DNA of 29,539 nucleotides from Magnetococcales bacterium. GTDB taxonomy: Bacteria > Pseudomonadota > Magnetococcia > Magnetococcales > JADFWU01. This document shows positions 12,904 through 29,480 of the stretch, piece after piece. The DNA is taken from positions 1-29,539 of the forward strand of contig JADFWU010000040.1 in the NCBI GenBank assembly GCA_015234045.1, in the 5' to 3' direction. Position 1 is the stretch's first letter; every line of letters begins with the position of its first letter. Below the pieces are notes generated by a model that saw only the letters and a program-made list of their open reading frames with translations, did no database searches and was not told the DNA's origin. A program made the position numbers and the translations under genes.

Positions 12904-14019
12904 TTATTCATAAAAATCCATGGCATTATAGCCATGTTTCTTTATCAATTCATCACGCTTGGCATCTTTCAAATCACTGCGAACCATCTCGGCAACCAAT
13001 TCATGAAACGTGATTTTTGGTGTCCAGCCCAGTTTTTGTTTGGCTTTTGAGGGATCGCCAAGCAGGGTTTCAACTTCGGTCGGTCGGAAATAGCGCGGGT
13101 CTATGCGTACTATGGCGCGGGGTTCTGTTTCAGAAGAGGTGTGCCAGTAGCCGATTTCATCAATGCCTTCGCCTTGCCACTCTATTTTCATCTCCAACTC
13201 TTTCGCAGCGGCTTCTACGAAGTCGCGCACGCTGTACTGTACGCCGGAGGCGATGACAAAATCTTCCGGTTGTTCTTGTTGGAGCATCAACCATTGCATT
13301 TCCACATAGTCGCGGGCGTGGCCCCAGTCGCGTTTTGCGTTCATGTTGCCCAGATAAAGGCACTCTTGCAGACCCAGTTTGATTCGGGTCAAGGCGCGAG
13401 TGATTTTTCGGGTGACGAAGGTTTCACCACGGATCGGGCTTTCATGGTTGAATAAAATGCCGTTGCAGGCGTAAATACCGTAAGCTTCCCGATAGTTTAC
13501 CGTGATCCAGTAGGCGTAGAGCTTGGCCACGGCGTAGGGACTGCGCGGGTAGAACGGTGTCTTCTCGGTCTGCGGGCTCTCCTGGACACGTCCGAATAGC
13601 TCGGATGTGCTGGCCTGATAGAAGCGGGTCTTCTTTTCCAGTCCGAGAATACGAATCGCCTCAAGGATACGCAATGGGCCCAACGCATCGGAGTTGGCGG
13701 TATATTCCGGCTCTTCAAAACTGACCGCGACATGGCTTTGCGCGGCGAGATTATATATCTCGTCTGGCCGTACCTTCTGGATAATATGGATCAGGCTGGT
13801 GGCATCGGTTTGATCACCATGGTGCAGAAAAAAACGCACATTCTGCTCATGTTGATCTTGATAAAGATGATCAATCCGGTCTGTGTTGAACAGGCTTGTC
13901 CGGCGTTTAATGCCGTGGACTTCGTAGCCCTTATCCAACAAAAATTCAGCCAGATACGCACCATCTTGGCCGGTAATACCCGTGATCAGGGCAACTTTGC
14001 TTTTTTCCATATCGCTCAT
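12904..14019 (-). CDS. gmd: GDP-mannose 4,6-dehydratase
   Basis: This 371-residue cytoplasmic short-chain dehydrogenase/reductase converts GDP-D-mannose to GDP-4-keto-6-deoxy-D-mannose. The NADP-binding motif [16 protein letters not shown] is near the N terminus and is followed by the Gmd-specific GIKRRTS and the [12 protein letters not shown] block. The catalytic residues are seen in STSELFG and [10 protein letters not shown] (Tyr-x3-Lys), and [16 protein letters not shown] is characteristic of the family. Length is normal for Gmd. The ATG overlaps the stop of fcl in an ATGA arrangement, so it is the last gene of a three-gene operon with the SPINDLY-like transferase and fcl. Its 3' end faces the E1 gene with only 8 nt between stop codons and no visible terminator. 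Together with fcl it provides GDP-L-fucose. Confidence 0.97.
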
Positions 14020-14987
14020 TGAGATATTTTTTGTTTGAAATCGTTATAGGCACGTGCAAGACCGTCCCTCAAGCCCACTTCAGCCTGCCAGCCGGTATCA
14101 GTAAGTCGGGTGCTGTCCATCAGTTTCCGTGGTGTACCATCCGGTTTTGAACGGTCAAACACAATCTCGCCGGTATAACCAACCACATCAGCAATTATCT
14201 CAGCCAATTCTTTGATGGTGATGTCACTGCCTGAGCCGACATTGATATGGCTACACATGGGTTGAGTGTGCTGTGCATAGCGGTTTTCATCAAGGTGCAT
14301 CAGGTGCACACAGGCCGCCGCCATATCATCCACATAAAGAAACTCGCGCCTCGGCGTACCACTACCCCAAACCACGACTTCAGCCGCCTGATTCATACAG
14401 GCTTCATGAAAACGGCGAATCAAGCCTGGAATCACATGGCTATTTTCCGGGTGATAGTTATCACCAACACCATAAAGATTGGTCGGCATGGCACTGCGAT
14501 AATCAATCTGATGGCTGGTTCCATATTGACGGTTATAGCTTTCACACAGCTTGATACCGGCGATTTTGGCAATGGCGTAGGGTTCATTGGTCGGCTCAAG
14601 CGGTCCGGTCAATAACGCCTGTTCCTGAATGGGCTGATCCGCCATCTGCGGATAGATACAACTGGAACCCAGGAACAGAAGTTTCTTAACACCGGATCGA
14701 AAGGCAGCATCAATGATATTGGCTTCCATCATCATGTTTTGATAGATGAACGCCGCAGGATAGGTTTCATTGGCGTGGATGCCGCCCACCTTTGCCGCAG
14801 CCAGATAGACTTGATCAGGCGTTTCACTGGCAAAAAAATCACGCACAGCGGCTTGCTCAGTCAGGTCAAGTTCCGCATGACTCCGCGTGATACAGCGCAC
14901 ACCCTCGCGTTGATCTAAAAGACGAACAATAGCAGAACCAACCATGCCGTTGTGGCCTGCAACATAGATTTTTTGATCACTACTCAT
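14016..14987 (-). CDS. fcl: GDP-L-fucose synthase (3,5-epimerase/4-reductase)
   Basis: This 323-residue cytoplasmic enzyme epimerises and reduces the Gmd product to GDP-L-fucose using NADPH. The N-terminal [12 protein letters not shown] nucleotide-binding motif, LGSSCIYP, the catalytic [13 protein letters not shown] and the family block MPTNLYG with [15 protein letters not shown] are all present. I place the start at 14987 (MSSDQ), where the ATG overlaps the stop of the upstream glycosyltransferase as ATGA; an in-frame ATG at 15011 would extend it by eight residues into that gene. The stop overlaps the gmd start in the same way. The overlaps on both sides imply coupled translation of all three proteins. 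Confidence 0.97.
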
Positions 14988-17170
14988 GACTGTTTGGCAT
15001 GGCGTTTCCACATGGAACGAAATGCCTGTTCCATATTCTTAGCAAACAGTTTGGCATCAAACAGCGGTGATTTTTTCAACCGATCACGCATGGTTGAACG
15101 CAGCGTCTCCAGTCGATCAACATCCTGAGCAAGGGCAACTACCATATCCACATAGGAATCAGCATCCTCGGCAATCAGTTTATCCAATCCCACTTGATTC
15201 AACAAACTGGCACCCACCCGCGCTGCATGTCGATCACCACGCAGCGCCACAACCGGCACACCCATCCATAACGCCTCACAGGTGGTGGTTGTACCATTGT
15301 AAGGAAACGTGTCCAATCCGATATCCGCCTGACCATAAGCGCCCAAATGATCCTGTAATGATGGCACTCTGGAAAGAATGGTCAAACGATCAGCAGTGAT
15401 CCCTTCCTTTTCGAGCAATGCGGTAAAGCGCTTCTGAACCGTCGGACTGGCCATGGATTTGTTTTTTATCAATAGCCTGGAGTCTGGCATGCGTCTGAGA
15501 ATTCTGGCCCAGATTTGAATCGTTGTTTCTGAGATTTTTGTATAATTATTGAAGCTGACAAAGGTGACATAGCCCTTGGATTTTGCAGGCGTTGCCACAA
15601 CATCCGGTGATTTGTCAGCCGGACTATAACAGAGAAAACCATCCGGCAGGCGCATCAATTTCTCTGAATGAAAGGCTTCAGAATCTCCAACCGGATCAGC
15701 AACAGAATCGGTAATACGATAATCAATAGCAGATAAACCCGTGGTATTAGGATAGCCCAACCAAGTCGCCTGAACCGGTGCCGGTTTACTGGCAAACAGT
15801 TGCAGCCGGTGGCCTCTGGTATGACCGGACAGATCCACCAGAATATCAATCTTATCCTTTTGGATCATCTGAGCGGCTTCAGCGTCTGATTTATTATCAA
15901 TCCGCCGCCAACCAATGACCAATTTGCGTAATTTATCTGTGATGTGGTCTGAATGTCTATTATTGGAATAGCAGTAAAAAGAGAGTTTTTTGCTGTTGTA
16001 TTCCTTAAAAAAGGTCAACAAAAAATAGCTCACCGAGTGGGTAATAAAATCACCTGATACAAAACCAATCTTCAACCGTTTCTTATTGGCTTTGATGGCG
16101 CGGTCTTTCAGTTTGACTCTCTTAATGTGTTCACAGGCAGAGTTCCAAGATTGATGCGCTTCAAACAGCTCACTTCGGTCACAGGTGCGGTAATTCATGC
16201 CGAATAAAAGACCGCTATGTGCTTTCAGATGATTCGGATCAAGGGCAATCGCCTTCTTGATGGAAGCCGTACCCGCTTCAAAATACCCTTGGCTGTTTAA
16301 AGCGCTACCGAGATTCATATGTGCGTCAGCACAGTCTGGATCAAGTGCAAGCGCTTTTCGATATTGGATAACAGCCCCGTCGAGATCACCAAAACTTTTC
16401 AACAAGTTGCCAAGATTATTGTACGCACTGACATAGTTCGGATTGATGGCAAGCGCGCGTTCACAGCAGTGAATCGCTTTCTCATGCTCTTTTTGATCTT
16501 TATAGGCATTGGCAAGATTGTTATAGGCTTCTGCATAACGCGGCGACAGCGCAAGCGCTTTTTGAAAGTACTCAATGGCCTTTTGTGGATCACTGCGTTT
16601 TAAGAAAACATTGCCCAAACCAAAATAAGCCAACGATGAATCAGGATTAATGGCACAGGCGTTTTGGTAGCTTGATATCGCCTCATCCAATTGGTCCAAC
16701 GCTTCAAGCGCATTGCCGAGATTGATATAGGCGCTGGAGTGAGAAGGCGTAATCGACAACGCTTTTTTACAAACCGAAACCGCCTCTTGTAATCGCCCCT
16801 GATCTTTCAGCACACTACCTAAATTACTCAACGCCTCGGTATGATTCGGGTTGATGGCAAGCGATTGTTGATAGCTGGCAATGGCCTCCTCATTGCGGCC
16901 CAATTGATGAAGAGAGATAGCCAGATTGAAGTGCAGCTTCGCGTTGGATGGATCAATTTCAAGCGCTTTTTGAAACTGTCCAACAGCCAGATCATGCCGA
17001 CTGATCTGTTGTGCAATCACACCCAGTGTATTGATCGCACCAACATGGTTTGGCACCACCTTGATGACGGCGGTAAGTAGTTTATCAGCTTCACTGAATT
17101 GCCCGGCTGTGTAGTGTTCAATAGCCTTGGAAAATGCAGACTCCACAGAGAGTTTCAACGGCATATCCAT
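14984..17170 (-). CDS. TPR protein with SPINDLY-like GT41 glycosyltransferase domain
   Basis: This 728-residue protein has about nine tetratricopeptide repeats (residues 1-330) followed by a GT41 catalytic domain (about 370-728). The latter matches plant SPINDLY more than animal O-GlcNAc transferase as I recall them: GYPNTTGL with [30 protein letters not shown] with Lys545 at the position of the essential OGT/SPY lysine, and [20 protein letters not shown], where OGT has a GHTTG motif. [13 protein letters not shown] is also intact. Plant SPINDLY is a protein O-fucosyltransferase using GDP-fucose, whereas OGT uses UDP-GlcNAc. This gene is followed, with ATGA overlap, by the two enzymes that make GDP-fucose. 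I therefore infer a protein O-fucosyltransferase. No signal peptide is seen, so it should be cytoplasmic. No good ribosome-binding site precedes 17170; Met3 at 17164 is possible. Confidence 0.9.
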
Positions 17171-17209: not shown

Positions 17210-17238
17210 ACTATACAAGATTTTTTCTGATTTTCCAA
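17210..17238 (-). promoter_or_regulatory. Probable promoter of the GT41-fcl-gmd operon
   Basis: On the minus strand TTGGAA (17238-17233) and TATAGT (17215-17210) are separated by exactly 17 nt. Transcription would start about 30 nt before the ATG at 17170. This makes the fucose operon independent of the upstream glycogen cluster. Confidence 0.6.
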
Positions 17239-17285: not shown

Positions 17286-19511
17286 TTACCGGCCCTGATT
17301 TTTCATCACCGATAAAGCGTTTTGAATCTCCGGTTTTTCGAATAACGCATCCAATGAAATAGCCAAACGCCGTTGCCAATTGGGATGTTGATCAACGGTT
17401 CCAGGCAGGTTGGCAGCCTCCAACAGCATCAAAAGATCTTCCAGTTGAATCAACTGTAACCGCCCCGGTGTCCAGGCTAACCAAGTATGTGCCGCCTGTA
17501 TCAACGCCTCGGAAAACAGTGGATCAGCAGCATCCGCATAAAGCCCGGACACATCCAGACCCGCTTTGGCAAAACTGGCCAGCAGTTTCTTTCTGAAATC
17601 AATCCGGTCCAGACGCTCTTGGCGCTCTACCAACGGATTGGGAAACAGCTTCAATTCAGAACGCCACTCCAAATCCCGACCCAACCACCACCCTTTCAGG
17701 GTTGGCAGATCGTGGGTAGATGCGGAAACAGTGGCATCACGATCATAAAGATGTGGCGCTAACGGCTCGCCAGTAGCATCCCGTTCGAAAAAGAGTAAGC
17801 GATAGGAGAGGATACCCCAATGCGCCAATTTCTCGCGGAAACCATCCGGCACATTGCCCAATGCCTCACCCACCACCAAGGCCCGATTACGTTGACTCTC
17901 CAACGCCACTATGGCCAAAAGATCATCCACAGGATAGCGGACATACGCCCCTTCCAGCGGTGTTGCCCCTTCTGGAATCCAGAACAGGCGGGCCAAGCTC
18001 ATGACATGATCCAGACGCACCGCGCCAGCGTGTCGCATGCTGGCGCGTAACATCTCGGCAAAGGGCGCATAGCCCATCTTTGCCAAACCTTGAGGATGAA
18101 ACGGCGGCAAGCCCCAGTTTTGACCCTGTGGATTAAATGCATCCGGTGGCGCACCAACCCGTGAACCATTTACATAGGCAGCCTGTTGACGCCAAAAATC
18201 ACTGCCATCAGGATCTACGCCGAGCGCCATATCAGCATAGAGCCCAACTTTAAGGCCGCGTTGCAGGCTGGTTTTACCACAGGCTTCAAGTTGAGATTCT
18301 GCCAACCAGAATAGATATTGATAAAAGTGCAACCGCTCTGGATGTTCGGCCATGTATCGCGTACAGGCTATTCCATTGGGCTGATGGTATTCACTGGGCC
18401 AGTCCGACCAGCGCGGACTGTTCTCTTTTACAGTAGCAAAATGTTCGGAAAGCGCTTCAAACAGTGCGCCATGACGCAGTGCATCACCGCCCTGCTCTAC
18501 ATACTGTTCAAACGCCTTGCCTCGTTCGGTTAACGCACCCTGTTGCAGATGATCACGAACAAACACGGTGAACATCTTCTCAAAGGCGACCATTTTCCAA
18601 CGACATACCGAAGGATAATCCACCAAACCATTTTGATTGATTCCTTCCCGCGTGGCCTTTGTGGCCGCCAAATAACGCAGCACAGCAGAGTCACCCGCTT
18701 CTGGCACGGAAAGAATATCCACATAGAGCGGATTAACCAAAGTGCGGCAGGACGGTGAATAAGGGCTGTGCCGTTCAGGAATCTGCAACATCGGTGTATG
18801 GAGTGGATTCAACCCAACCGTGGCACCGCCGAGATCAGCAGTATGATTGACCAGATCATTCAGTACCGAGAAATCACCGATACCCTGTTCATTACCATTC
18901 CTTAATCCATACAGCTGAACCGAAAAACCCCAGCCCCGCCATTCAGGCACATCAAATGATTCCGGCTGATAACAACGCCGTGGTGCAACAATCAACGTGG
19001 TCTCGGCAACGCCTTGATCAAACGCATCACCCATCAATTGGAATGTGTGATAACCCAACGGCAATGGATCATGCACCCAGAATTGCCGCCGATCCATTTC
19101 GCCAATCTCACCGGTAAAGCGGGTGCCCCAAGGCAGTTCATCCAGGTTAAAGAAATTCTGTCGGGTTTCGCCCTCTTCCAGAGTCAACGTCCATTGGGTC
19201 CAGCTGTGACCCTGGTGGCGATAGTGGACAATGGGAATAAAGAATGGCAACTGATCTTCAAACACCACCATGACCGGTGGCAGCCCAGGTTTCCAGGCCG
19301 CCTCTTTGGCACGGATCAGGCTTTTTTCAATGGCCGCATCACTGCTGGCATCCAGATCTAAATCAGCAAGAACCTGTATCAGTGTCGATTCAGGCACCTG
19401 ATACCAAGTGCCACTGGGTGCCCAATATCCGGTATCCACTCCAGCAGCTTCGGCCAGTTGAGCGAGATTTTCAGGAAGGGTTGATTCAGGTTGGCGTGTT
19501 TTGGCGTTCAT
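17286..19511 (-). CDS. malQ: 4-alpha-glucanotransferase (amylomaltase)
   Basis: This 741-residue GH77 enzyme transfers alpha-1,4-glucan segments between acceptors and frees glucose, recycling the short chains left by phosphorylase and debranching enzyme. Family motifs are clear: HSPYSPSCRTLVNPLYVDI, VGAPPDAFNPQGQNWGLPPF, the nucleophile motif VRLDHVM near residue 500, GEALGNVP near 550 with the acid/base Glu, and STHDLPT near 600. The N-terminal 190 residues correspond to the extra domain of E. coli-type MalQ rather than the short Thermus type. It is the last gene of the glycogen operon: its ATG overlaps the glgX stop as ATGA (19508-19511). A new promoter follows downstream for the next operon. 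Confidence 0.95.
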   Translation of the reverse strand: MNAKTRQPESTLPENLAQLAEAAGVDTGYWAPSGTWYQVPESTLIQVLADLDLDASSDAAIEKSLIRAKEAAWKPGLPPVMVVFEDQLPFFIPIVHYRHQGHSWTQWTLTLEEGETRQNFFNLDELPWGTRFTGEIGEMDRRQFWVHDPLPLGYHTFQLMGDAFDQGVAETTLIVAPRRCYQPESFDVPEWRGWGFSVQLYGLRNGNEQGIGDFSVLNDLVNHTADLGGATVGLNPLHTPMLQIPERHSPYSPSCRTLVNPLYVDILSVPEAGDSAVLRYLAATKATREGINQNGLVDYPSVCRWKMVAFEKMFTVFVRDHLQQGALTERGKAFEQYVEQGGDALRHGALFEALSEHFATVKENSPRWSDWPSEYHQPNGIACTRYMAEHPERLHFYQYLFWLAESQLEACGKTSLQRGLKVGLYADMALGVDPDGSDFWRQQAAYVNGSRVGAPPDAFNPQGQNWGLPPFHPQGLAKMGYAPFAEMLRASMRHAGAVRLDHVMSLARLFWIPEGATPLEGAYVRYPVDDLLAIVALESQRNRALVVGEALGNVPDGFREKLAHWGILSYRLLFFERDATGEPLAPHLYDRDATVSASTHDLPTLKGWWLGRDLEWRSELKLFPNPLVERQERLDRIDFRKKLLASFAKAGLDVSGLYADAADPLFSEALIQAAHTWLAWTPGRLQLIQLEDLLMLLEAANLPGTVDQHPNWQRRLAISLDALFEKPEIQNALSVMKNQGR

Positions 19512-21655
19512 ATATCTTCCTTAACCTGTGCCTGAATAAAAACAGCCAAAGCACGAGACACCAATACATAACGGCTATCACTGATCAGGTGTTGCTGTTC
19601 GGGCTCTGGATCTGCTGTATCCACCAACAGTTGCCAACTTTCCGCATTCTCAGCTTTGGGAAAATGACAGGTAATCGGCTTGTCATGGGCATTCATCATC
19701 ACCAGAAAAGTGCTGTCCGGCTCTGGTTGGCCAATACTGGACAGGTGATCCTGACCCGCCTTGCCACTGATCAGAAAACAGAATGCACGTCTTTGTGCCG
19801 TACTCCAATCTTGATCTTTCAGCTCTTGGCCTTTTTCTGACAACCAGGTGATATCCTTACTATTGGTACCACGAATCGTGCGCCCTGAGAAAAATCGATT
19901 GCGCCGAAACACTTTATGATTGCGCCGCAGTTCGATCAAACGTTGGGTAAAAGCGATCATCTGATCCCGTTGTGCATTACCCTTTTCCCAGGAAAGCCAG
20001 TTGATGTGATTATCCTGACAGTAGGGATTATTGTTGCCTTCCCGACTGAAAGCCATTTCATCACCAGACAATATCATCGGCACACCTTGAGAAAGTATCA
20101 GAGTGGCCATGAAATTACGCATCTGTCGTTGCCTGAGCGTCTGGATTTCGGCATCCTCGGTTGCCCCTTCAACACCGCAATTCCAGCTGTTATTTTCGTT
20201 ACAGCCGTCGTTATTGTTCTCCTGATTGGCAGTATTGTGTTTCTGGTTGTAGCTGACCAGATCCCGCAAACTGAAGCCATCATGGGCGGTAACAAAGTTC
20301 ACGCTGGACCACGGACGACGGCCACTATGATCAAACAGGTCCGAAGAACCGGTAATCCGATAGGCCATATCGCCCACCATGCCAGGATCACCCCGCCAGA
20401 ACTTACGCACCGTATCCCGGTAACGATCGTTCCACTCCGCCCAACCGCCGGGATAGTTACCCAGCTGATAACCATCCATACCCAAATCCCACGGCTCGGC
20501 AATCAACTTTACCTTGGATAGCATGGGATCCTGACGCAGCACATCCAGAAAACCGGAACGCCCGTCAAATGCGCCCTGCCGATCCCGCGCCAAACTGGAA
20601 GTCAGATCAAAACGGAAACCATCCACATGCATCTCGCCTACCCAATAGCGCAACGAATCCAGCACCAGTTGTAATACGTTTGGATGCTCCAGATTCAGCG
20701 TATTACCACAGCCGGAGTAGTTTTCATAATAGCGCAACTGATCCGAACAGAGACGATAGTAGGACAGATTATCAATGCCACGATAACACAGCGTTGGACC
20801 CAACTGACTGCCTTCAACAGTGTGGTTGAACACCACATCAAGAATCACCTCAATGCCCGCCTCATGCAGCACGCCCACCATGGTTTTAAATTCTCTGATA
20901 TTGCCGCTGGAGAGATATCGAGATGAAGGTGCCATGAATACGAGCGGATTATAGCCCCAATAGTTGCGTAGCCCCTTTTTCTCTAACTCAGACTCATCGA
21001 CAAACGACTGCACCGGCAACAATTCAAGGGCAGTAACACCAAGATCCTTCAGATAGCGCACCACTTCCGGCATTGTCAGCCCGGCACAGGTGCCACGCAG
21101 CTTAAGCGGCACGTCGGGATGGCGTTTGGTAAAACCGCGCACATGGGTTTCGTAAATGATGGTGTCCCGCCAGGAAGTCGCGGGTGGTTTGTCGTGTCCC
21201 CAAGTATAGGCGTTTTCTACCACCACACTTTTGGGTACATAAGCAGCACTGTCGCGCGTGTCAAAGGAGAGATCCGGGTTTTCCTGTTTCTCTTTTTGAA
21301 AACCAAACAGCGCAGGATGCCAACGCAGTTCACCCACCAAACGCCGTGCATAGGGATCTATCAGCAATTTATGATGATTAAACCGATGACCATTCTGTGG
21401 ATCATAGGGACCGTATACCCGGAATCCATACACCTGTCCGGGTCGCAAATCAGGAAAATAGCCATGCCATATTGAGTGCGTATACTCCGGCAAGGTTACC
21501 CGCTCTTTTTCCATGATACCTTTACGATCAAACAGGCATAATGCCACCTTCTCGGCATTTTCGGAGAAAAGCGCAACATTAACGCCCCGACCATCCCAGG
21601 TGACACCCAAAGGAAACGGATTTCCAGGCCAAATACGCTGAGAACCATGACTCAT
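19508..21655 (-). CDS. glgX: Glycogen debranching enzyme GlgX
   Basis: This 715-residue GH13 isoamylase-type enzyme hydrolyses the alpha-1,6 linkages of phosphorylase-trimmed glycogen. The N-terminal domain ([20 protein letters not shown]) is the usual CBM48 start. The catalytic barrel shows [16 protein letters not shown] near residue 348, AEPWD near 385 and [16 protein letters not shown] near 457, so the nucleophile, acid and third carboxylate are kept. [20 protein letters not shown] is the GlgX/TreX family block. The start at 21655 overlaps the glgB stop as ATGA; a longer reading to 21745 would run back into glgB and lacks family similarity. The stop overlaps malQ. E. coli GlgX is 657 residues, so this one is somewhat longer. 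Confidence 0.95.
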
Positions 21656-23934
21656 GATAGATCCGAAGACTCCGTAGCCGGTAACAGAATCAATGCCCCA
21701 AGCGGCGGCAAGGTCAAAGAGAGCGAATAGGGTCGCCCATGCCACGTATGATCATCTGCTTGCATGCCACCCTGGTTGCCAATGTTCGAACCACCATAAT
21801 AAGCGGCATCGGTATTGATCCGCTCACGCCACAAACCCGAAAACGGCACACCAATGCGATAATCATGGCGCACCACCGGTGTAAAGTTGAACACCACCAC
21901 CGCACAGGATTTGGGTTCCTGCCCCTGACGAATAAAAGCGATAACGCTCTGATCCTCATCATGACAATCAATCCATTGAAACCCCTCAGGCTTGGTATCC
22001 AACACATGCAGAGCCGGTAACGCTCGATAGAGCAAATTCAAATCACGTACCAAATCCCGGACACGGGCATGCAGGCTTTTGTCATCATCCACCAACTGCC
22101 AATCCAGACCGATATCATGATTCCATTCCCGAATTTGACCGAACTCGCCACCCATGAAGAGCAGCTTTTTACCAGGATGGGTATATTGATAGGCAAATAA
22201 CAGACGCAGATTGGCGGCTTTTTGCCATGCGTCACCGGCCATCCGAGTCCAGAGAGAGCCCTTACCATGCACCACTTCATCATGAGACAGCGGCAACACA
22301 AAGCGTTCGCTATAGGCATATAACTGACTGAAGGTCAGACTATCATGATGGTATCGACGGTGAATGGACTGCTTGGACAGATAGTTGAGCGTGTCATGCA
22401 TCCAGCCCATATTCCATTTATAATCAAAACCCAGTCCGCCCAATACTGCGGGCGCTGAAACCCGTGGCCATGCGGTTGATTCCTCTGCAATCACCACGAC
22501 ACCCGGCGCTTGTTCCGACACCTGATGATTGAGCTTCTGAAGAAAGGCCACTGACTCCAGATTTTCATTACCACCATAGCAGTTTGGCACCCATTCACCC
22601 GGCTTGCGGCTGTAGTCCAGATAGAGCATGGAAGAGACCGCATCCACACGCAATCCATCCACATGGAACGACTCAATCCAGAACAACGCATTGGTGATCA
22701 GAAAATTAACCACCTCCGCCCGCCCCAGATTGTAGATGCAGGTTTCCCAATCAGGATGCCACCCCTGACGCGGATCTTCATGTTCATAGAGAAACGTCCC
22801 GTCAAAGGTACGTAAACCATGTTGATCTTCCGGAAAATGGGCAGGCACCCAATCAACAATCACACCAATACCGGCCTGATGACAACACTCAACAAAGTAG
22901 CGAAAATCATCCGGTCCACCAAACCGATGCGTAGGCGCAAACAGCCCCACCGGTTGATAGCCCCAGGAACCATCAAAAGGGTGTTCCGATACCGGCAGCA
23001 ACTCGATATGCGTAAAGCCCATCCCCTGAACATAGGGCACCAGATCAATAGCCAGTTCCCGATAGGTCAGAACACGTCCATCCTCATCCAAACGCCGTTT
23101 CCAGGAGCCCAAATGCACTTCATAGATACTCATCGGCGCATCAATAGCACCGGTTTGAATTCGGTTTGCCATCCACTCTTCATCCGCCCAAACATAGGGC
23201 GTTGGATCCACCACCACCGATGCCGTACCAAAATCCGTTTCCATGCTTCGGGCCATGGGATCGGATTTCAGCATCCGCTGTTGACCGCTTTGATCTAAAA
23301 TCTCAAATTTATAGAGCGCTCCGGGCTGCACACCGGGAATGAACAACTCCCAAACGCCACAATCATGACACAATCGCAACACATGATGCCGACCATCCCA
23401 GCCATTAAAGTCACCAACCACACTAACCCGCTTGGCATTGGGTGCCCAAACGGCAAAATAACAGCCGTAAACACCATCTACACTGATAAAGTGGGCACCG
23501 AGCCGATCATATGACTGCCAGTGATTACCCTCTTTGATCAGATGTTGATCCAACGTGCCCAACATGATGGGAAAACTGTATGGATCGCGTATTTTCTGTC
23601 CACCATCAACTTCTATAAGGTATTGAGGCTGACCCATGCTCACCTGTGCGGGCCGGTCGGTGATCTCTACCAGCGCAGCAAAAAGCCCAACCTCATGCAA
23701 CCGCGTCATGGATGACCACAGCGCCAAACTCTGACTGTTGAACAGATCCACCGTGCGCGCACCTGGCCAGAACACCCGAATCAACCAATGATCTCGGTCC
23801 ACACGATGCGGTCCCAACACGGAGAAAGGGTTGCCATGGTTACCCTGAACCAGCGCGTCCATTTCAGCAGGATCAAAACCCAGATCCATATCAGCGATTG
23901 AATCCTCAGATTGGGACGTTGTCACAGTGACCAC
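21652..23934 (-). CDS. glgB: 1,4-alpha-glucan branching enzyme
   Basis: This 760-residue GH13 enzyme makes the alpha-1,6 branches of glycogen. It has the N1 and CBM48 domains of the long GlgB type (NPFSVLGPH near residue 40, [21 protein letters not shown] near 155), then [10 protein letters not shown] and the catalytic barrel. Asp431 (LRVDAV), Glu484 (AEESTAW) and Asp552 ([11 protein letters not shown]) align with the nucleophile, acid/base and transition-state residues. Length is slightly above the 728 of E. coli. I use GTG at 23934, 3 nt after the glgP stop, which fits the tight packing of the operon; the next in-frame ATG (residue 16) has no better ribosome-binding site. The stop overlaps the glgX ATG. 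Confidence 0.96.
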
Positions 23935-23937
23935 CCA

Positions 23938-26433
23938 TCAAATACGTGAAGAGGGATAGAAAGGATGCAATGGTTCGATATTCCAAACATCCTTGGCATA
24001 GGTGTGTACCGTTCGATCAATGGAGAAATTGCCCATCCGCGCCACATTGAGTACCGCCATCCGCGTCCACTCTTCCGGACTGCCGAACGCATCATCCACA
24101 CGACCCAAACAGGCCATATATGACGCATAGTCGGCACAAACCAGATAGTGATCACCGTCTAAAATCGCATTGACCAGAGAGTGGTAGCGCCCTGGATCAT
24201 CCGGCGAGAAAAAACCATCCCGGATCATGTCCAGCACCTTACGCAACTCCAAATTATCTTCATAATATTGGCGCGAATTGTAGCCGTTATCACGCAGATC
24301 CTGAGCCGCTTCAGCGGTCAAGCCAAAGATGAAGATATTCTCTTTTCCAACGGATTCACGGATTTCAATATTGGCACCGTCCAACGTACCAATGGTCAAC
24401 GCACCATTCATGGCAAACTTCATATTGCCGGTTCCAGACGCTTCCGAACCAGCGGTTGATATCTGCTCGGAAAGATCACAACCCGGCACAATGGTCTCTG
24501 CCATGGTGACGTTATAGTTCGGTAGAAATGCCAACTTCAACGCATCACGCGTATCCGGATCACTATTGATGGTCGCCGCCACATCATTGATCAAACGAAT
24601 GATCAATTTGGCCAAAAAGTAGCCTGGCGCGGCTTTACCAGCGATCACGACAGTACGTGGCAGAGGATCAGAGGCGATCCCCTCTTTGAGCCGATTATAG
24701 CGTGTGATTACTGAAAAAAGATTCAACAGCTGGCGCTTGTATTCATGAATACGTTTGACCTGAATATCAAACAGTGACTGATAATCCACCTGCACGCCGA
24801 CTTTCTTTTGAATCAACTTAGCCAGCCGTTTTTTATTTTGGTTTTTCACTTTGCGAAAAGCCCTCAGAAAACTTTCATCGTCTGCATGGGCTTCCAGTTC
24901 TTTCAGATACGCCAGATCGGTAATCCACTGATCACCAATACGCGCAGTGATCAAACTTGCCAAATTGGGATTGGACTGCAACAACCATCGGCGCTGTGTC
25001 ACACCATTGGTCACATTGATGAACCACTCCTTATCCATCCGATGGAAGGGTTCAAAAGTGCCTTCACACATCAACTGGGTATGCAACTCTGCCACACCGT
25101 TGACCTTATGACTGCCCACTACGGAAAGATGCGCCATCCGCACCCGTTTGGAATCTTCATCAATCAATGAGAGCCGATTGGGCATCTCTGCATCCGCAGG
25201 AAACTGTCGCTTAACGTTGTTGAGATGTTGATGATTGATCCAGTAAATCAAAGCCATATGGCGCGGCACTATCCGCTCCAACATATCAACCGGCCATGTT
25301 TCCAGCGCCTCGGGCATCAAGGTATGATTGGTGTATGAAAACACCTGCCGTGTCATTGCCCAGGCTTCGGCTTTTGGCACCATATGATCATCAATCAAAA
25401 TCCGCATCAACTCAGCGATGGCCAACGACGGATGAGTATCGTTTAAATGGATTGAAACCTTTTCCGGCAAAGTGCGAATATCTTTGAAAGCCCGTTGATG
25501 ACGCTCGATGATATCCATGATGGACGCACTGACAAAGAAATACTCCTGCTTCAATCGCAGAATTTGACCTTTCTCTGTCGCATCATTTGGATAAAGCACA
25601 CGGGACAAGGTTTCCGACAGCGCCCGACCTTCAACCGCTGCGGTATACTCCCCTTCATTGAAATCCTGAAGATTAAAATCCGTAATGGAACGCGCCGACC
25701 ACAGGCGTAGATTCACCAACGTATTGGCACGAAAACCAGCCAAAGGAATGTCATAGCCCAGTGCCATGACCTTTTCTGTATCGACCCAAAGAGTCTGTTC
25801 ATCGCCATCACTCTCTTTATGAGTCACCGCTTTGCCGTTAAAGCGTACCGAATGTTTGACGCAATGACGCTCAAACTCCCAGGGATTGCCAAATCTCAGC
25901 CAGTTTTCCGGATACTCCACCTGTTGGCCATGCTCCACCCGCTGATGAAACATACCGAACTCATAACGGATGCTATAGCCGTAGCCTGGATAACCATGGG
26001 TTGCCATGGACTCCAATATACAAGCCGCCAATCGACCCAAACCACCATTGCCCAAACCAGCGTCCAACTCACAGGCTTTCACCGTGTCATAATTCTGCCC
26101 CAACTCCGACAAGGCAACTTTGACAGGGTTGAGCAGATCCAGAGCAAGCAGGTTGGAAGATAACAGCTGACCAAGCAGGTACTCCATTGAAAGGTAATAG
26201 CTTCTGCGTACATTACGCCGGTTCTGTTCCCGCTCCATTTTGATATAGCGTTCGCTCAAAAGGCCACGCACCAGATAGGCAAGAGCGTAGAACCAATCAT
26301 GACTGGTGGCTTCATCCGGGTTCTTGCCAACGGTGCGTACCATGTTATCGATAAGCCTACTTTTGATGGCAGAAGTTTCCCAGGAACTGGGAAGATCCGA
26401 ACCGAGCATAGGCGCGTTGAGCGGAAGATTCAT
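23938..26433 (-). CDS. glgP: Glycogen/maltodextrin phosphorylase
   Basis: This 831-residue GT35 enzyme releases glucose-1-phosphate from glycogen chain ends with inorganic phosphate. Visible hallmarks are RRSYYLSMEYLLGQLL, ELDAGLGNGGLGRLAAC, GYGYSIRYEFGMF, HLNDTHPSLAIAELMRIL and the pyridoxal-phosphate signature beginning EASGTGNMKFAMNGAL, with the Schiff-base Lys near residue 671. The length matches E. coli GlgP (815). It is cytoplasmic. A purine-rich TGGAG is placed about 11 nt before the ATG. It follows glgA by 240 nt, a gap that could hold its own promoter, and is then tightly packed with glgB, glgX and malQ, so breakdown and branching enzymes appear to be made together. Confidence 0.97.
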   Translation of the reverse strand: MNLPLNAPMLGSDLPSSWETSAIKSRLIDNMVRTVGKNPDEATSHDWFYALAYLVRGLLSERYIKMEREQNRRNVRRSYYLSMEYLLGQLLSSNLLALDLLNPVKVALSELGQNYDTVKACELDAGLGNGGLGRLAACILESMATHGYPGYGYSIRYEFGMFHQRVEHGQQVEYPENWLRFGNPWEFERHCVKHSVRFNGKAVTHKESDGDEQTLWVDTEKVMALGYDIPLAGFRANTLVNLRLWSARSITDFNLQDFNEGEYTAAVEGRALSETLSRVLYPNDATEKGQILRLKQEYFFVSASIMDIIERHQRAFKDIRTLPEKVSIHLNDTHPSLAIAELMRILIDDHMVPKAEAWAMTRQVFSYTNHTLMPEALETWPVDMLERIVPRHMALIYWINHQHLNNVKRQFPADAEMPNRLSLIDEDSKRVRMAHLSVVGSHKVNGVAELHTQLMCEGTFEPFHRMDKEWFINVTNGVTQRRWLLQSNPNLASLITARIGDQWITDLAYLKELEAHADDESFLRAFRKVKNQNKKRLAKLIQKKVGVQVDYQSLFDIQVKRIHEYKRQLLNLFSVITRYNRLKEGIASDPLPRTVVIAGKAAPGYFLAKLIIRLINDVAATINSDPDTRDALKLAFLPNYNVTMAETIVPGCDLSEQISTAGSEASGTGNMKFAMNGALTIGTLDGANIEIRESVGKENIFIFGLTAEAAQDLRDNGYNSRQYYEDNLELRKVLDMIRDGFFSPDDPGRYHSLVNAILDGDHYLVCADYASYMACLGRVDDAFGSPEEWTRMAVLNVARMGNFSIDRTVHTYAKDVWNIEPLHPFYPSSRI

Positions 26434-26673
26434 TACGCGGAAGACTCCAGATACATGACGATCATGGGAAAGAATTTATAGGGCAGAGCTATTGTTACTC
26501 TACCTTCTGCACTCTTCTCCTAACAAAATAAGTACCAACTTGTCATAATTGGGCAATAATTCTGAAAAAAATAGCCCAGAAACAGTGTCAACCATGCATT
26601 GCATAATAGAATGAATGCCCGCCTCAGAGGGAATGACGGGTACAAAACTCTTTCAACTGCGTAACGCCTACCA
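26434..26673. other. Intergenic region between glgA and glgP
   Basis: This 240-nt gap has no supported gene. On the minus strand it holds, in order, a REP-like palindrome (26611-26640), a TTGACA hexamer at 26591-26586 without a matching -10, a loose TGGGC/GCCCA inverted repeat near 26551-26579, and a TATAAA at 26480-26475 about 42 nt before the glgP ATG. It probably contains a promoter for glgP-glgB-glgX-malQ, but no complete promoter can be called. Confidence 0.4.
26611..26640 (-). repeat. REP-like imperfect palindrome downstream of glgA
   Basis: On the minus strand CCCGTC (26640-26635) can pair with GGCGGG (six pairs including a G-T wobble) across an 11-nt loop. The sequence GTCATTCCC followed by GCGGGCATTC resembles the common bacterial palindromic unit GTCATTCCCGC...GCGGGAATC, with two changes. 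It lies 34 nt after the glgA stop and may act as an mRNA 3' end. No T-run follows. Confidence 0.35.
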
Positions 26674-28119
26674 TCATGATCCATGAAGAATGTTTTGATA
26701 GTGTGCAACATAATGCTTGGCAGCATGTGACCAACCAAAATCCTGTTTCATTCCCCGCTGTTGCATCGTCTGCCAAAGCACAGGGTTCTCATAGGCAACC
26801 AATAACGCCCGCACCGCACCAGCCAAACTCGCCGCATCCGCTTGATCAAACAGAAAACCAGTGCCCTCTTTACCATCCTCGGACAGATTCACTACGGTGT
26901 CCGCCAAACCACCGGTTCTACGCACCAACGGCACTGTGCCATAGCGCAGCGCATACATTTGTGTCAAACCACATGGCTCAAAACGAGATGGCATGAGAAA
27001 AACATCCGAACCCGCTTGAATCCGGTGCGAAAGCGCTTCGTCATAACCGATATACACGCCCACCTGACCAGGATTGGCATCCTTGGCCGCGCGGAATTGT
27101 CGCTCAAGCTCTGGATCACCAGACCCCAGCAACGCCAGTTGAGCACCAGAATCCATCAACTGATGAATGATATCCGCCACCAAATCCAACCCTTTTTGAT
27201 CCGCCAGACGACTGACGACACCAAACAGCGGACATGTTGGATTTACATGTAGGCCCATCTCTTTTTGCAGAGCCGCTTTATTATGGGCTTTGCCATCAAG
27301 CGTATCTTGATCATAGTGATGCCCGATATGCGGATCAGTAGCCGGATTCCATTCACCATAATCCACGCCATTTAGAATCCCGATCAGTCGATCCGAACGA
27401 TGGGACAACACCCCTTCCAAACCATGACCAAATTCGGAGGTTTGAATCTCTTTGGCATAGGTTGGACTGACCGTGCTCAACCAATCGCTATAATGCAAGC
27501 CCGCTTTCATAAATGAGATGTGATCGTGAAACTCCAATCCTTCCAAACCATAAGCATGCTCAGGCACTCTCAAATCATGTAACAACGCCCGAGAAAACAT
27601 ACCCTGATGTTGCAAATTATGAATGGTGAACAGCGTGCGACACTGCCGATGTTCGCGGAATTTCAAATACGCCGCAGCCAATCCGGTTTGCCAATCATGG
27701 GCGTGAAGAATATCTGGCTGCCAACCAAGCAACGTACCAAACTCAACCAACACAGCACCAGCCAAACTCAACAGCGCAAAACGTTGAGCATTGTCCGGCC
27801 ACTCCTGTCCGCTCTCATCCTGATATGGACCACCATCACGTTGATAAAGCGCCGGACAATCCACCAACCACACCACCACGCCACTGTCTGGCATCCGACC
27901 TCGGATCAGGTTGACGTTTCCACTACCGAGCAGATTACCCAATGAAATGGGCTTTCGTGGATAGCGCATCTTCTGTTTCAATCCCGAGTAGGCAGGCATC
28001 ATCACCTGAGCATCAACACCCAAACCCGCTAATGCCGATGGCAATGCGCCTGCCACATCACCCAAGCCACCGGTTTTGATCAAAGGAAACGCTTCAGAAC
28101 AAAGGTGCAGGATTTTCAT
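26674..28119 (-). CDS. glgA: Glycogen synthase (ADP-glucose dependent)
   Basis: This 481-residue GT5 enzyme elongates alpha-1,4-glucan from ADP-glucose, the product of the divergent glgC. The ADP-glucose loop KTGGLGDV starts at Lys15, HAHDWQTGL and TIHNLQHQG follow, and the C-terminal nucleotide-binding half has VSRLADQKGLDL, PSRFEPCGLTQMYALRYGTVP and VRRTGGLADTV. Length equals the E. coli enzyme (477). AGGACG about 6-8 nt before the ATG supports the start. The 83-nt gap to glgC should contain the promoters of both. glgP follows after 240 nt. Confidence 0.97.
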   Translation of the reverse strand: MKILHLCSEAFPLIKTGGLGDVAGALPSALAGLGVDAQVMMPAYSGLKQKMRYPRKPISLGNLLGSGNVNLIRGRMPDSGVVVWLVDCPALYQRDGGPYQDESGQEWPDNAQRFALLSLAGAVLVEFGTLLGWQPDILHAHDWQTGLAAAYLKFREHRQCRTLFTIHNLQHQGMFSRALLHDLRVPEHAYGLEGLEFHDHISFMKAGLHYSDWLSTVSPTYAKEIQTSEFGHGLEGVLSHRSDRLIGILNGVDYGEWNPATDPHIGHHYDQDTLDGKAHNKAALQKEMGLHVNPTCPLFGVVSRLADQKGLDLVADIIHQLMDSGAQLALLGSGDPELERQFRAAKDANPGQVGVYIGYDEALSHRIQAGSDVFLMPSRFEPCGLTQMYALRYGTVPLVRRTGGLADTVVNLSEDGKEGTGFLFDQADAASLAGAVRALLVAYENPVLWQTMQQRGMKQDFGWSHAAKHYVAHYQNILHGS

Positions 28120-28202
28120 GTGCTACGTCCTATGATAAGTTCATACTTTGTAATTTTATGGAACAGATTCAGAATCACATCGACACGCCTCTGGAGGGGT
28201 AC
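28120..28202. promoter_or_regulatory. Divergent glgA-glgC promoter region
   Basis: Only 83 nt separate the glgA ATG (28119) from the glgC ATG (28203), and the segment is AT-rich in its middle (28131-28158). It must carry both ribosome-binding sites and, unless transcription begins farther out, both promoters. No convincing -35/-10 pair could be identified on either strand. The layout allows synthase and pyrophosphorylase to be controlled from one site. Confidence 0.45.
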
Positions 28203-29480
28203 ATGTCAAAATCCAGCCTCACACTTACGGATGCCATTCGCAACACACTTGTTGTGGTCCTGGCCGGTGGTCGTGGCTCCCGTCTTAAACAATTGACCCA
28301 TGTGCAAGCCAAACCGGCAGTACCCTTTGCTGGGAAATTTCGCATCATTGATTTTGCTCTGTCCAACACGGTGAATTCCGGCTTTCGTCAAGTAGGCGTT
28401 TTGACTCAGTATCACATGCACACGCTGATTCAACATGTACAGGCTGGTTGGGGATTTTTACGGGCTGAATTCAATGAGTTCATTCAGGTTTGGCCGGCCC
28501 AGCAGACAATGCAAACCTCCGAATGGTACCAGGGCACAGCGGATGCGGTATACCAAAACATCGATATCATCGAAGCCCACAAGCCCAAGTATATCCTGAT
28601 CCTCGGTGGTGACCACATCTATAAGCAGGACTACCGCATTCTTTTGGAAGAGCATATCTCACGCAATGCCGATGTGTCAGTCTGTTGTGTGCCGGTGCCG
28701 CGCAAAGAGGCCAGCGGGTTTGGTGTCATGGATGTGGATGAGACCGGGCGCATTGCTCAATTCATCGAAAAACCAGAAAATCCACCAACCATGCCGGATG
28801 ATGATACACGCTCGTTGGCCTCCATGGGTATCTATCTATTCAGCGCGGACGCTCTAACTGAACAACTGCGCCGAGATGCTGTCGAAGCCGGTTCCAGCCA
28901 TGATTTTGGCAAGGATCTGATTCCCCATATGGTGCCCCGCCTCAACGTTTTTGCCCATCGCTTTACCGATAGCTGTGTGCGGCGGCACAAAGATGATGCA
29001 CCCTATTGGCGCGATGTGGGCACTGTGGATGCCTATTGGGAAGCCAACATGGATCTTGTCTCGGTAACACCTGATCTCGATCTGTATGACCGTGACTGGC
29101 CGATCTGGACCTATCAGCGCCAATATCCCGCAGCTAAATTTGTCTTTGATGACGATGAACGGCGCGGTATGGCGGTGGACTCCCTGGTTTCAGGTGGTTG
29201 TATTGTGTCTGGCTCTGTGGTGCGACGCTCCCTGCTCTACTCGGATGTTCGGGTACACTCTTATTGCACTATTGAGGACTCTATTTTACTACCTGGCTGC
29301 GAAGTGGGCCGCAATTGTCGTTTGAAAAAAGTGATCGTTGGCCAGAACTGCACCATTCCACCAAATACGGTGATTGGTGAAGATTCGGTTGCGGATGCAA
29401 AACACTTTTTCCGCACTGAAGAAGGTGTGGTATTGGTATCCAGTGATGATCTGGAGAAGTTGGCGGATGAAAATGGATAG
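28203..29480 (+). CDS. glgC: Glucose-1-phosphate adenylyltransferase (ADP-glucose pyrophosphorylase)
   Basis: This 425-residue enzyme makes ADP-glucose from glucose-1-phosphate and ATP, the committed step of glycogen synthesis. The N-terminal LAGGRGSRLKQLT nucleotide loop, KPAVPFAGKFRIIDF (effector-site region), GGDHIYKQDY, GFGVMDVD, FIEKPENPP and SMGIYLF motifs are present, and a left-handed beta-helix domain occupies about residues 300-400. Length is like E. coli GlgC (431). The start is the ATG at 28203, 5 nt after a strong GGAGG at 28193-28197; an in-frame ATG at 28158 would add 15 residues and lacks such a site. It is divergent from glgA. A dispersed repeat begins 2 nt after its stop codon, close to the window edge, and no terminator is visible. 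Confidence 0.97.
   Translation: MSKSSLTLTDAIRNTLVVVLAGGRGSRLKQLTHVQAKPAVPFAGKFRIIDFALSNTVNSGFRQVGVLTQYHMHTLIQHVQAGWGFLRAEFNEFIQVWPAQQTMQTSEWYQGTADAVYQNIDIIEAHKPKYILILGGDHIYKQDYRILLEEHISRNADVSVCCVPVPRKEASGFGVMDVDETGRIAQFIEKPENPPTMPDDDTRSLASMGIYLFSADALTEQLRRDAVEAGSSHDFGKDLIPHMVPRLNVFAHRFTDSCVRRHKDDAPYWRDVGTVDAYWEANMDLVSVTPDLDLYDRDWPIWTYQRQYPAAKFVFDDDERRGMAVDSLVSGGCIVSGSVVRRSLLYSDVRVHSYCTIEDSILLPGCEVGRNCRLKKVIVGQNCTIPPNTVIGEDSVADAKHFFRTEEGVVLVSSDDLEKLADENG

Follow-up and report, generated by a model that had tools for sequence, protein, structure and literature searches.

A SPINDLY-like GT41 gene coupled to the genes for GDP-L-fucose synthesis in a Magnetococcales bacterium: a probable protein O-fucosylation operon

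SPINDLY (SPY)-like genes are widespread in bacteria, and very few have been characterised (PMC10027727). At the sequence level their products have been described before (PMC10027727, PMC9715652), and the literature searched yielded no bacterial one whose donor had been demonstrated. Which sugar does such a protein transfer, and to what? The question is raised by a contig of a Magnetococcales bacterium (JADFWU010000040.1, assembly GCA_015234045.1; its whole 29,539 nucleotides are called the window here), where a gene for a glycosyltransferase family 41 (GT41) protein with tetratricopeptide repeats (TPRs) overlaps fcl, and fcl overlaps gmd. We propose that the three genes probably encode a SPINDLY-type protein O-fucosyltransferase with a dedicated donor supply in one translational unit. 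On its pocket residues and its neighbours, the GT41 protein quite likely takes GDP-fucose as its donor; by analogy with the plant enzyme AtSPY, its reaction is likely to be protein O-fucosylation.

The three genes, and all features of the operon given below, lie on the reverse strand. The GT41 gene (14984-17170) encodes a SPINDLY-like O-fucosyltransferase candidate of 728 residues, recognised by TPR and PF13844 matches above the curated cut-off, its relatives in the Protein Data Bank (PDB), its pocket residues and its place in a tree. It is followed by fcl (14016-14987; GDP-L-fucose synthase, 323 residues) and gmd (12904-14019; GDP-mannose 4,6-dehydratase, 371 residues), both identified by family models, searches of the own genome and motifs. 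The Fcl product scores 516 bits against NF047922 (GDP-L-fucose synthase; cut-off 500) and the Gmd product 590 bits against TIGR01472 (cut-off 415); the SSC and YxxxK motifs are intact in Fcl, as are TSE and YxxxK in Gmd. Each junction is a 4-bp ATGA stop/start overlap, at 14984-14987 between GT41 and fcl and at 14016-14019 between fcl and gmd. The start of fcl is the ATG at 14987; the listed 331-residue frame begins at a GTG at 15011. An earlier sequence-only reading of this DNA had placed the genes and overlaps in this way, and the reading frames, families and both junctions bear it out.

The source genome (3.65 Mb, 117 contigs, 93% complete) has one detected copy each of GT41, fcl and gmd, all in the operon, and encodes a GDP-mannose pyrophosphorylase/isomerase elsewhere. 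It thus holds the de novo pathway to GDP-L-fucose, with a supply of GDP-mannose and with Gmd and Fcl carrying intact catalytic motifs. The conversion of GDP-mannose to GDP-L-fucose is established for the Gmd and Fcl families. Because these two GDP-fucose-making enzymes share an overlapping three-gene block with the transferase, fucose is the sugar to which the operon points. In the mechanism that we propose, GT41, fcl and gmd would be expressed as one translational unit, Gmd and Fcl would convert GDP-mannose to GDP-L-fucose, acceptor polypeptides would be held along the TPR superhelix of the GT41 protein, and this protein would move L-fucose from GDP-fucose onto serine or threonine side chains in the cytoplasm.

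The architecture and the donor pocket of the transferase agree with this proposal. Nine 34-residue TPR units, the number given by the sequence-only reading, follow one another in exact register over residues 9-314 (16229-17146), and the GT41 catalytic domain, delimited by PDB relatives and the pocket alignment, occupies residues 361-728 (14987-16090). Asparagine is kept at four of the six ladder positions known from AtSPY (PMC9715652): N218, N251, N252 and N286 in window numbering. Among natural PDB entries AtSPY also matches best, with 431 bits in the main segment; the human O-GlcNAc transferase (OGT) reaches 156+94. Catalytic-domain identity is 46% to AtSPY, 39% to the OGT of Thermobaculum terrenum (TtOGT) and 33% to human OGT. 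Both SPINDLY-type blocks quoted in the earlier reading are present and align with AtSPY, where human OGT has GYPGTSGA and NGHTTGMD. Cryo-electron microscopy of AtSPY named the residues that hold GDP-fucose, among which K689, A731 and Y744 decide between GDP-fucose and UDP-GlcNAc; their counterparts in human OGT are L866, R904 and C917 (PMC10027727). Activity of AtSPY is abolished by mutating K689, K665, E752, Y744 or V497, with A731 acting as a specificity residue (PMC10027727). The window protein has K569, A611 and Y624 in place of K689, A731 and Y744, not the OGT-state residues, and K545 in place of the essential K665. Altogether 13 of the 17 published GDP-fucose positions are identical, including H495, S496, V497, N662, K665, H728, T747, T748 and E752 (AtSPY numbering), and the four changes from AtSPY are I592L, L721R, I722V and L723P. 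Written as a 17-position signature, the pocket reads HSVLNNKKRVPHAYTTE in the window, HSVINNKKLILHAYTTE in AtSPY and HPTLNQKLV-AHRCHTD in human OGT, the human letter at the K689 column depending on the alignment.

Phylogeny points the same way. An 81-sequence IQ-TREE analysis put the window protein and AtSPY together in a 60-row clade (SH-aLRT 93), with TtOGT and human OGT outside, which agrees with the affinity to plant SPINDLY claimed earlier; a 169-sequence FastTree run did not separate AtSPY and the window protein from TtOGT. AtSPY is the sole eukaryotic SPY in these trees. Sequence, donor-pocket residues and tree thus support calling the window protein SPINDLY-like.

An association between such transferases and fcl is seen outside the order as well. 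Six Azospirillum plasmids (L094, L120, L095, L121, L122 and L123) carry a GT41 whose closely matching signature is HSVLNNKKRI(P/D)HAYTTE. Each of them has an annotated GDP-L-fucose synthase gene at a distance of 0.06-7.4 kb from that GT41; in two (B510 and TSA2s) fcl is directly upstream, 57-62 bp away on the same strand. More widely, fcl was found within 10 kb of 7 of 21 GT41 loci with the full SPY signature, none of 11 that have K/A/Y without S496-V497, and 1 of 65 in which position 731 holds a different residue; a last class (fcl in 3 of 45) includes loci picked for their fcl or gmd and cannot be compared with the others. At the level of whole genomes, in a class-wide sample of Alphaproteobacteria, fcl was present in 34 of 40 genomes with a SPY-like GT41 and in 13 of 40 without; among those of at least 2.5 Mb the counts were 32 of 37 and 7 of 15 (Fisher p 0.005).

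Several observations weigh against the proposal, and some removed parts of the sequence-only reading. Conserved adjacency of GT41, fcl and gmd, which that reading named as a check, did not hold up: no other genome examined showed the three-gene arrangement. It is missing from the other members of the order in the comparison and from the 20 other full-signature GT41 loci, so that gmd lies near GT41 only in the window among the 21. No SPY-like GT41 was found within about 10 kb of the fcl/gmd loci of some 60 relatives, some on short contigs. The Azospirillum cases count as one or two events, because the plasmids share a replicon cluster and their GT41s form one clade. Position 731 is variable (I, T, K, L or Q) among the closest GT41 relatives, which makes A611 weak evidence when taken by itself, and the single-copy claims are provisional because the genome is 93% complete. 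Moreover, fcl was not found in 3 of 12 full-signature genomes, nor gmd in one of these, so the signature alone is no guarantee of a GDP-fucose supply. The full-signature GT41 of one alphaproteobacterium (G569, locus L155), whose genome is 98% complete and yielded no fcl and no gmd, could serve to test for another donor or for fucose salvage. Of the claim that the operon names the donor, then, what stands is the SPY-like pocket and tree position, the genome's only detected fcl and gmd directly behind the transferase, and the proximity of fcl in Azospirillum; a separate promoter, discussed below, and a conserved three-gene linkage do not.

The closest relatives of the GT41 protein form a family (f8) in the same order (G017, G022, G027 and G030; 53-58% catalytic-domain identity), and no fcl or gmd was found near their tandem GT41 genes. 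One of these loci (L074; G017:C21:13000-32900) holds four tandem SPY-like TPR-GT41 genes, with further ones on the same contig, and includes a TPR-sulfotransferase and a TPR-B12/radical-SAM protein, which makes the array a family of protein-modifying enzymes with TPR heads. The fcl and gmd genes of relatives are commonly neighbours, and one genome has them behind manC. Elsewhere (G503:C67, L140), a SPY-like GT41 with leucine at 731 has an fcl with one in-frame TGA (14401-15303) 1.9 kb away on the opposite strand, which may be the GT41-fcl association in decay.

Two other accounts of the donor have to be weighed. Such genes are often annotated as O-GlcNAc transferases using UDP-GlcNAc, and membership in GT41 is compatible with that activity; given the lower identity to OGTs than to AtSPY, the absence of arginine at 731, the lysine and tyrosine at 689 and 744, which disfavour UDP-GlcNAc in AtSPY, and the position of TtOGT and human OGT outside the window protein's clade, we consider this very improbable. 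The genes might instead be coincidental neighbours, with gmd and fcl serving a surface polysaccharide (lipopolysaccharide or capsule) and GT41 using another donor or acting in polysaccharide synthesis. Relatives do keep fcl and gmd in ordinary sugar-nucleotide clusters lacking a SPY-like GT41, once directly behind manC, and glycan islands that also encode methyl-, sulfo- and other transferases are the setting of many bacterial GT41s. Set against this are the two ATGA overlaps that join GT41 to the only fcl and gmd detected, the lack of polysaccharide genes beside fcl and gmd in the operon, the SPY-state pocket and the independent proximity of fcl in Azospirillum, which together make a chance arrangement unlikely. 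No match to the fucosyltransferase families GT10 or GT11 was found in the source genome, an absence that is weak since control genomes gave none either.

If GDP-fucose is the donor, there are several candidates for the acceptors. The sequence-only reading favoured cytoplasmic proteins, and regulatory O-fucosylation that tunes many intracellular proteins, as in plants and Toxoplasma, would fit the AtSPY-like fold, asparagine-ladder superhelix and pocket, AtSPY itself acting on nucleocytoplasmic proteins; no secretion or flagellar gene was found near the operon within the window. Type I secretion genes, on the other hand, occur in five of the six Azospirillum GT41 loci, a flagellin-fliD-fliT cluster stands beside a GT41 on Burkholderia glumae pBGF3, and the flagellins of the magnetotactic relative MO-1 are highly glycosylated (PMC7175107), so that we consider cytoplasmic regulation as the main role rather unlikely. 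The genome's single GT41 could instead fucosylate its many flagellins in the cytoplasm before their export. The source genome has 13 flagellin-domain matches above the family cut-off, 12 of them strong, and given no fewer than 12 flagellin genes and only one detected GT41, flagellins are the first candidate acceptors. MO-1 has 14 flagellin genes, all with highly glycosylated products, and MC-1 has 15, and GT41-type genes are present in the flagellar clusters of another magnetotactic bacterium (PMC7175107). The pBGF3 locus (L126, 4275-15143) runs from flagellin, fliD and fliT to a non-SPY TPR-GT41 and then to vioA and other sugar-modifying genes, which by adjoining it hint at its donor. No other glycosyltransferase family was found among the non-flagellin reading frames scanned next to the flagellin arrays on C64 and C23, Maf and FlmG not having been searched genome-wide. 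The operon has, however, no flagellin gene close by, and a dedicated flagellin transferase is in our view possible and short of probable. The claim of cytoplasmic acceptors thus keeps the support of fold, superhelix and pocket, while the neighbours of bacterial GT41s and the flagellin count make flagellins or exported proteins at least as likely; proteins exported later, flagellins first among them, appear somewhat more likely acceptors than cytoplasmic regulators. Near three flagellin genes on contig C23 (L174, 13666-19614) the source genome also encodes a 1982-residue protein with RCC1, PKD and thrombospondin-type-3 repeats, a possible large surface protein.

The surroundings of the operon bear on its expression. 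Upstream, on the same strand, malQ ends at 17286, 115 bp before GT41; it belongs to a compact glycogen cluster (17286-29480) of phosphorylase, branching enzyme, a GH13 protein, malQ and starch/glycogen synthase, with a divergent ADP-glucose pyrophosphorylase-like gene. The earlier claim of a well-formed promoter at 17210-17238 could not be sustained: TTGGAA-17-TATAGT is a weak site (9/12) and not above chance, the region having eight such matches where shuffles predict 7.7. Nor was a terminator-like site found on the operon strand between the end of malQ (17286) and the start of GT41 (17170). A transcript separate from the glycogen cluster is possible on this sequence; with that cluster on the same strand and lacking a terminator-like site before GT41, read-through could couple fucosylation to glycogen metabolism. 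Downstream, a plus-strand E1-dehydrogenase gene converges on gmd, ending 8 bp beyond it. The GC content of GT41 (46%) is slightly under its neighbours' 49-53%. Import of the cassette from afar was considered and set aside, as the closest relatives of all three genes are mostly of the same order among the sequences compared; no phage homologue was found.

No description of a donor-coupled GT41 operon was found in the literature searched, which is not proof of absence. With an operon whose only other products make GDP-fucose, a SPY-state pocket and fcl proximity in Azospirillum, the donor question becomes directly testable with three genes, and the answer would tell whether bacteria carry out O-fucosylation of the SPINDLY type, and on which targets. 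A broader view would take the operon as a complete O-fucosylation module and the first donor-naming bacterial cytosolic case of the SPINDLY type, and would see the many bacterial SPY-like GT41s with this pocket as fucosyltransferases too, their targets being flagellins, secreted proteins or cytoplasmic ones; this we hold tentatively, as slightly on the doubtful side of an even balance.

Among known systems, the nearest is AtSPY (PDB 8dtf-8dti, 7y4i), a GT41 nucleocytoplasmic protein O-fucosyltransferase with the same TPR superhelix and GT41 domain, 46% catalytic identity, four of six asparagine-ladder positions, and K689/A731/Y744, K665, H728, T747, T748, E752, S496 and V497 in common. The window protein differs in being bacterial and coupled to fcl and gmd, in its nine TPRs and four pocket-rim changes, and in lacking a long serine/threonine-rich N-terminal tail, and its donor is read from sequence. 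The Azospirillum plasmid GT41s have nearly the same pocket signature and a GDP-L-fucose synthase gene no more than 7.5 kb away (two have it directly upstream), but no gmd nearby; they lie in larger glycan islands and show 48-50% catalytic identity to the window protein. The family f8 proteins are closest in sequence (53-58%) and share the K689/Y744/H728 state, whereas residue 731 varies among I, T, K, Q and L, several copies occur per genome, fcl and gmd are not nearby, and one array includes the TPR-sulfotransferase and TPR-radical-SAM genes. TtOGT (5djs) and human OGT share the GT41 fold with TPRs and differ in identity (39% and 33%), in their pockets (HPVLNRMIP-MLTYCTE and HPTLNQKLV-AHRCHTD) and in lying outside the SPY clade. 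B. glumae pBGF3 likewise has a bacterial TPR-GT41 adjoining sugar-nucleotide genes that would name its donor, though without the SPY signature, with a viosamine-type sugar gene and in a flagellar cluster.

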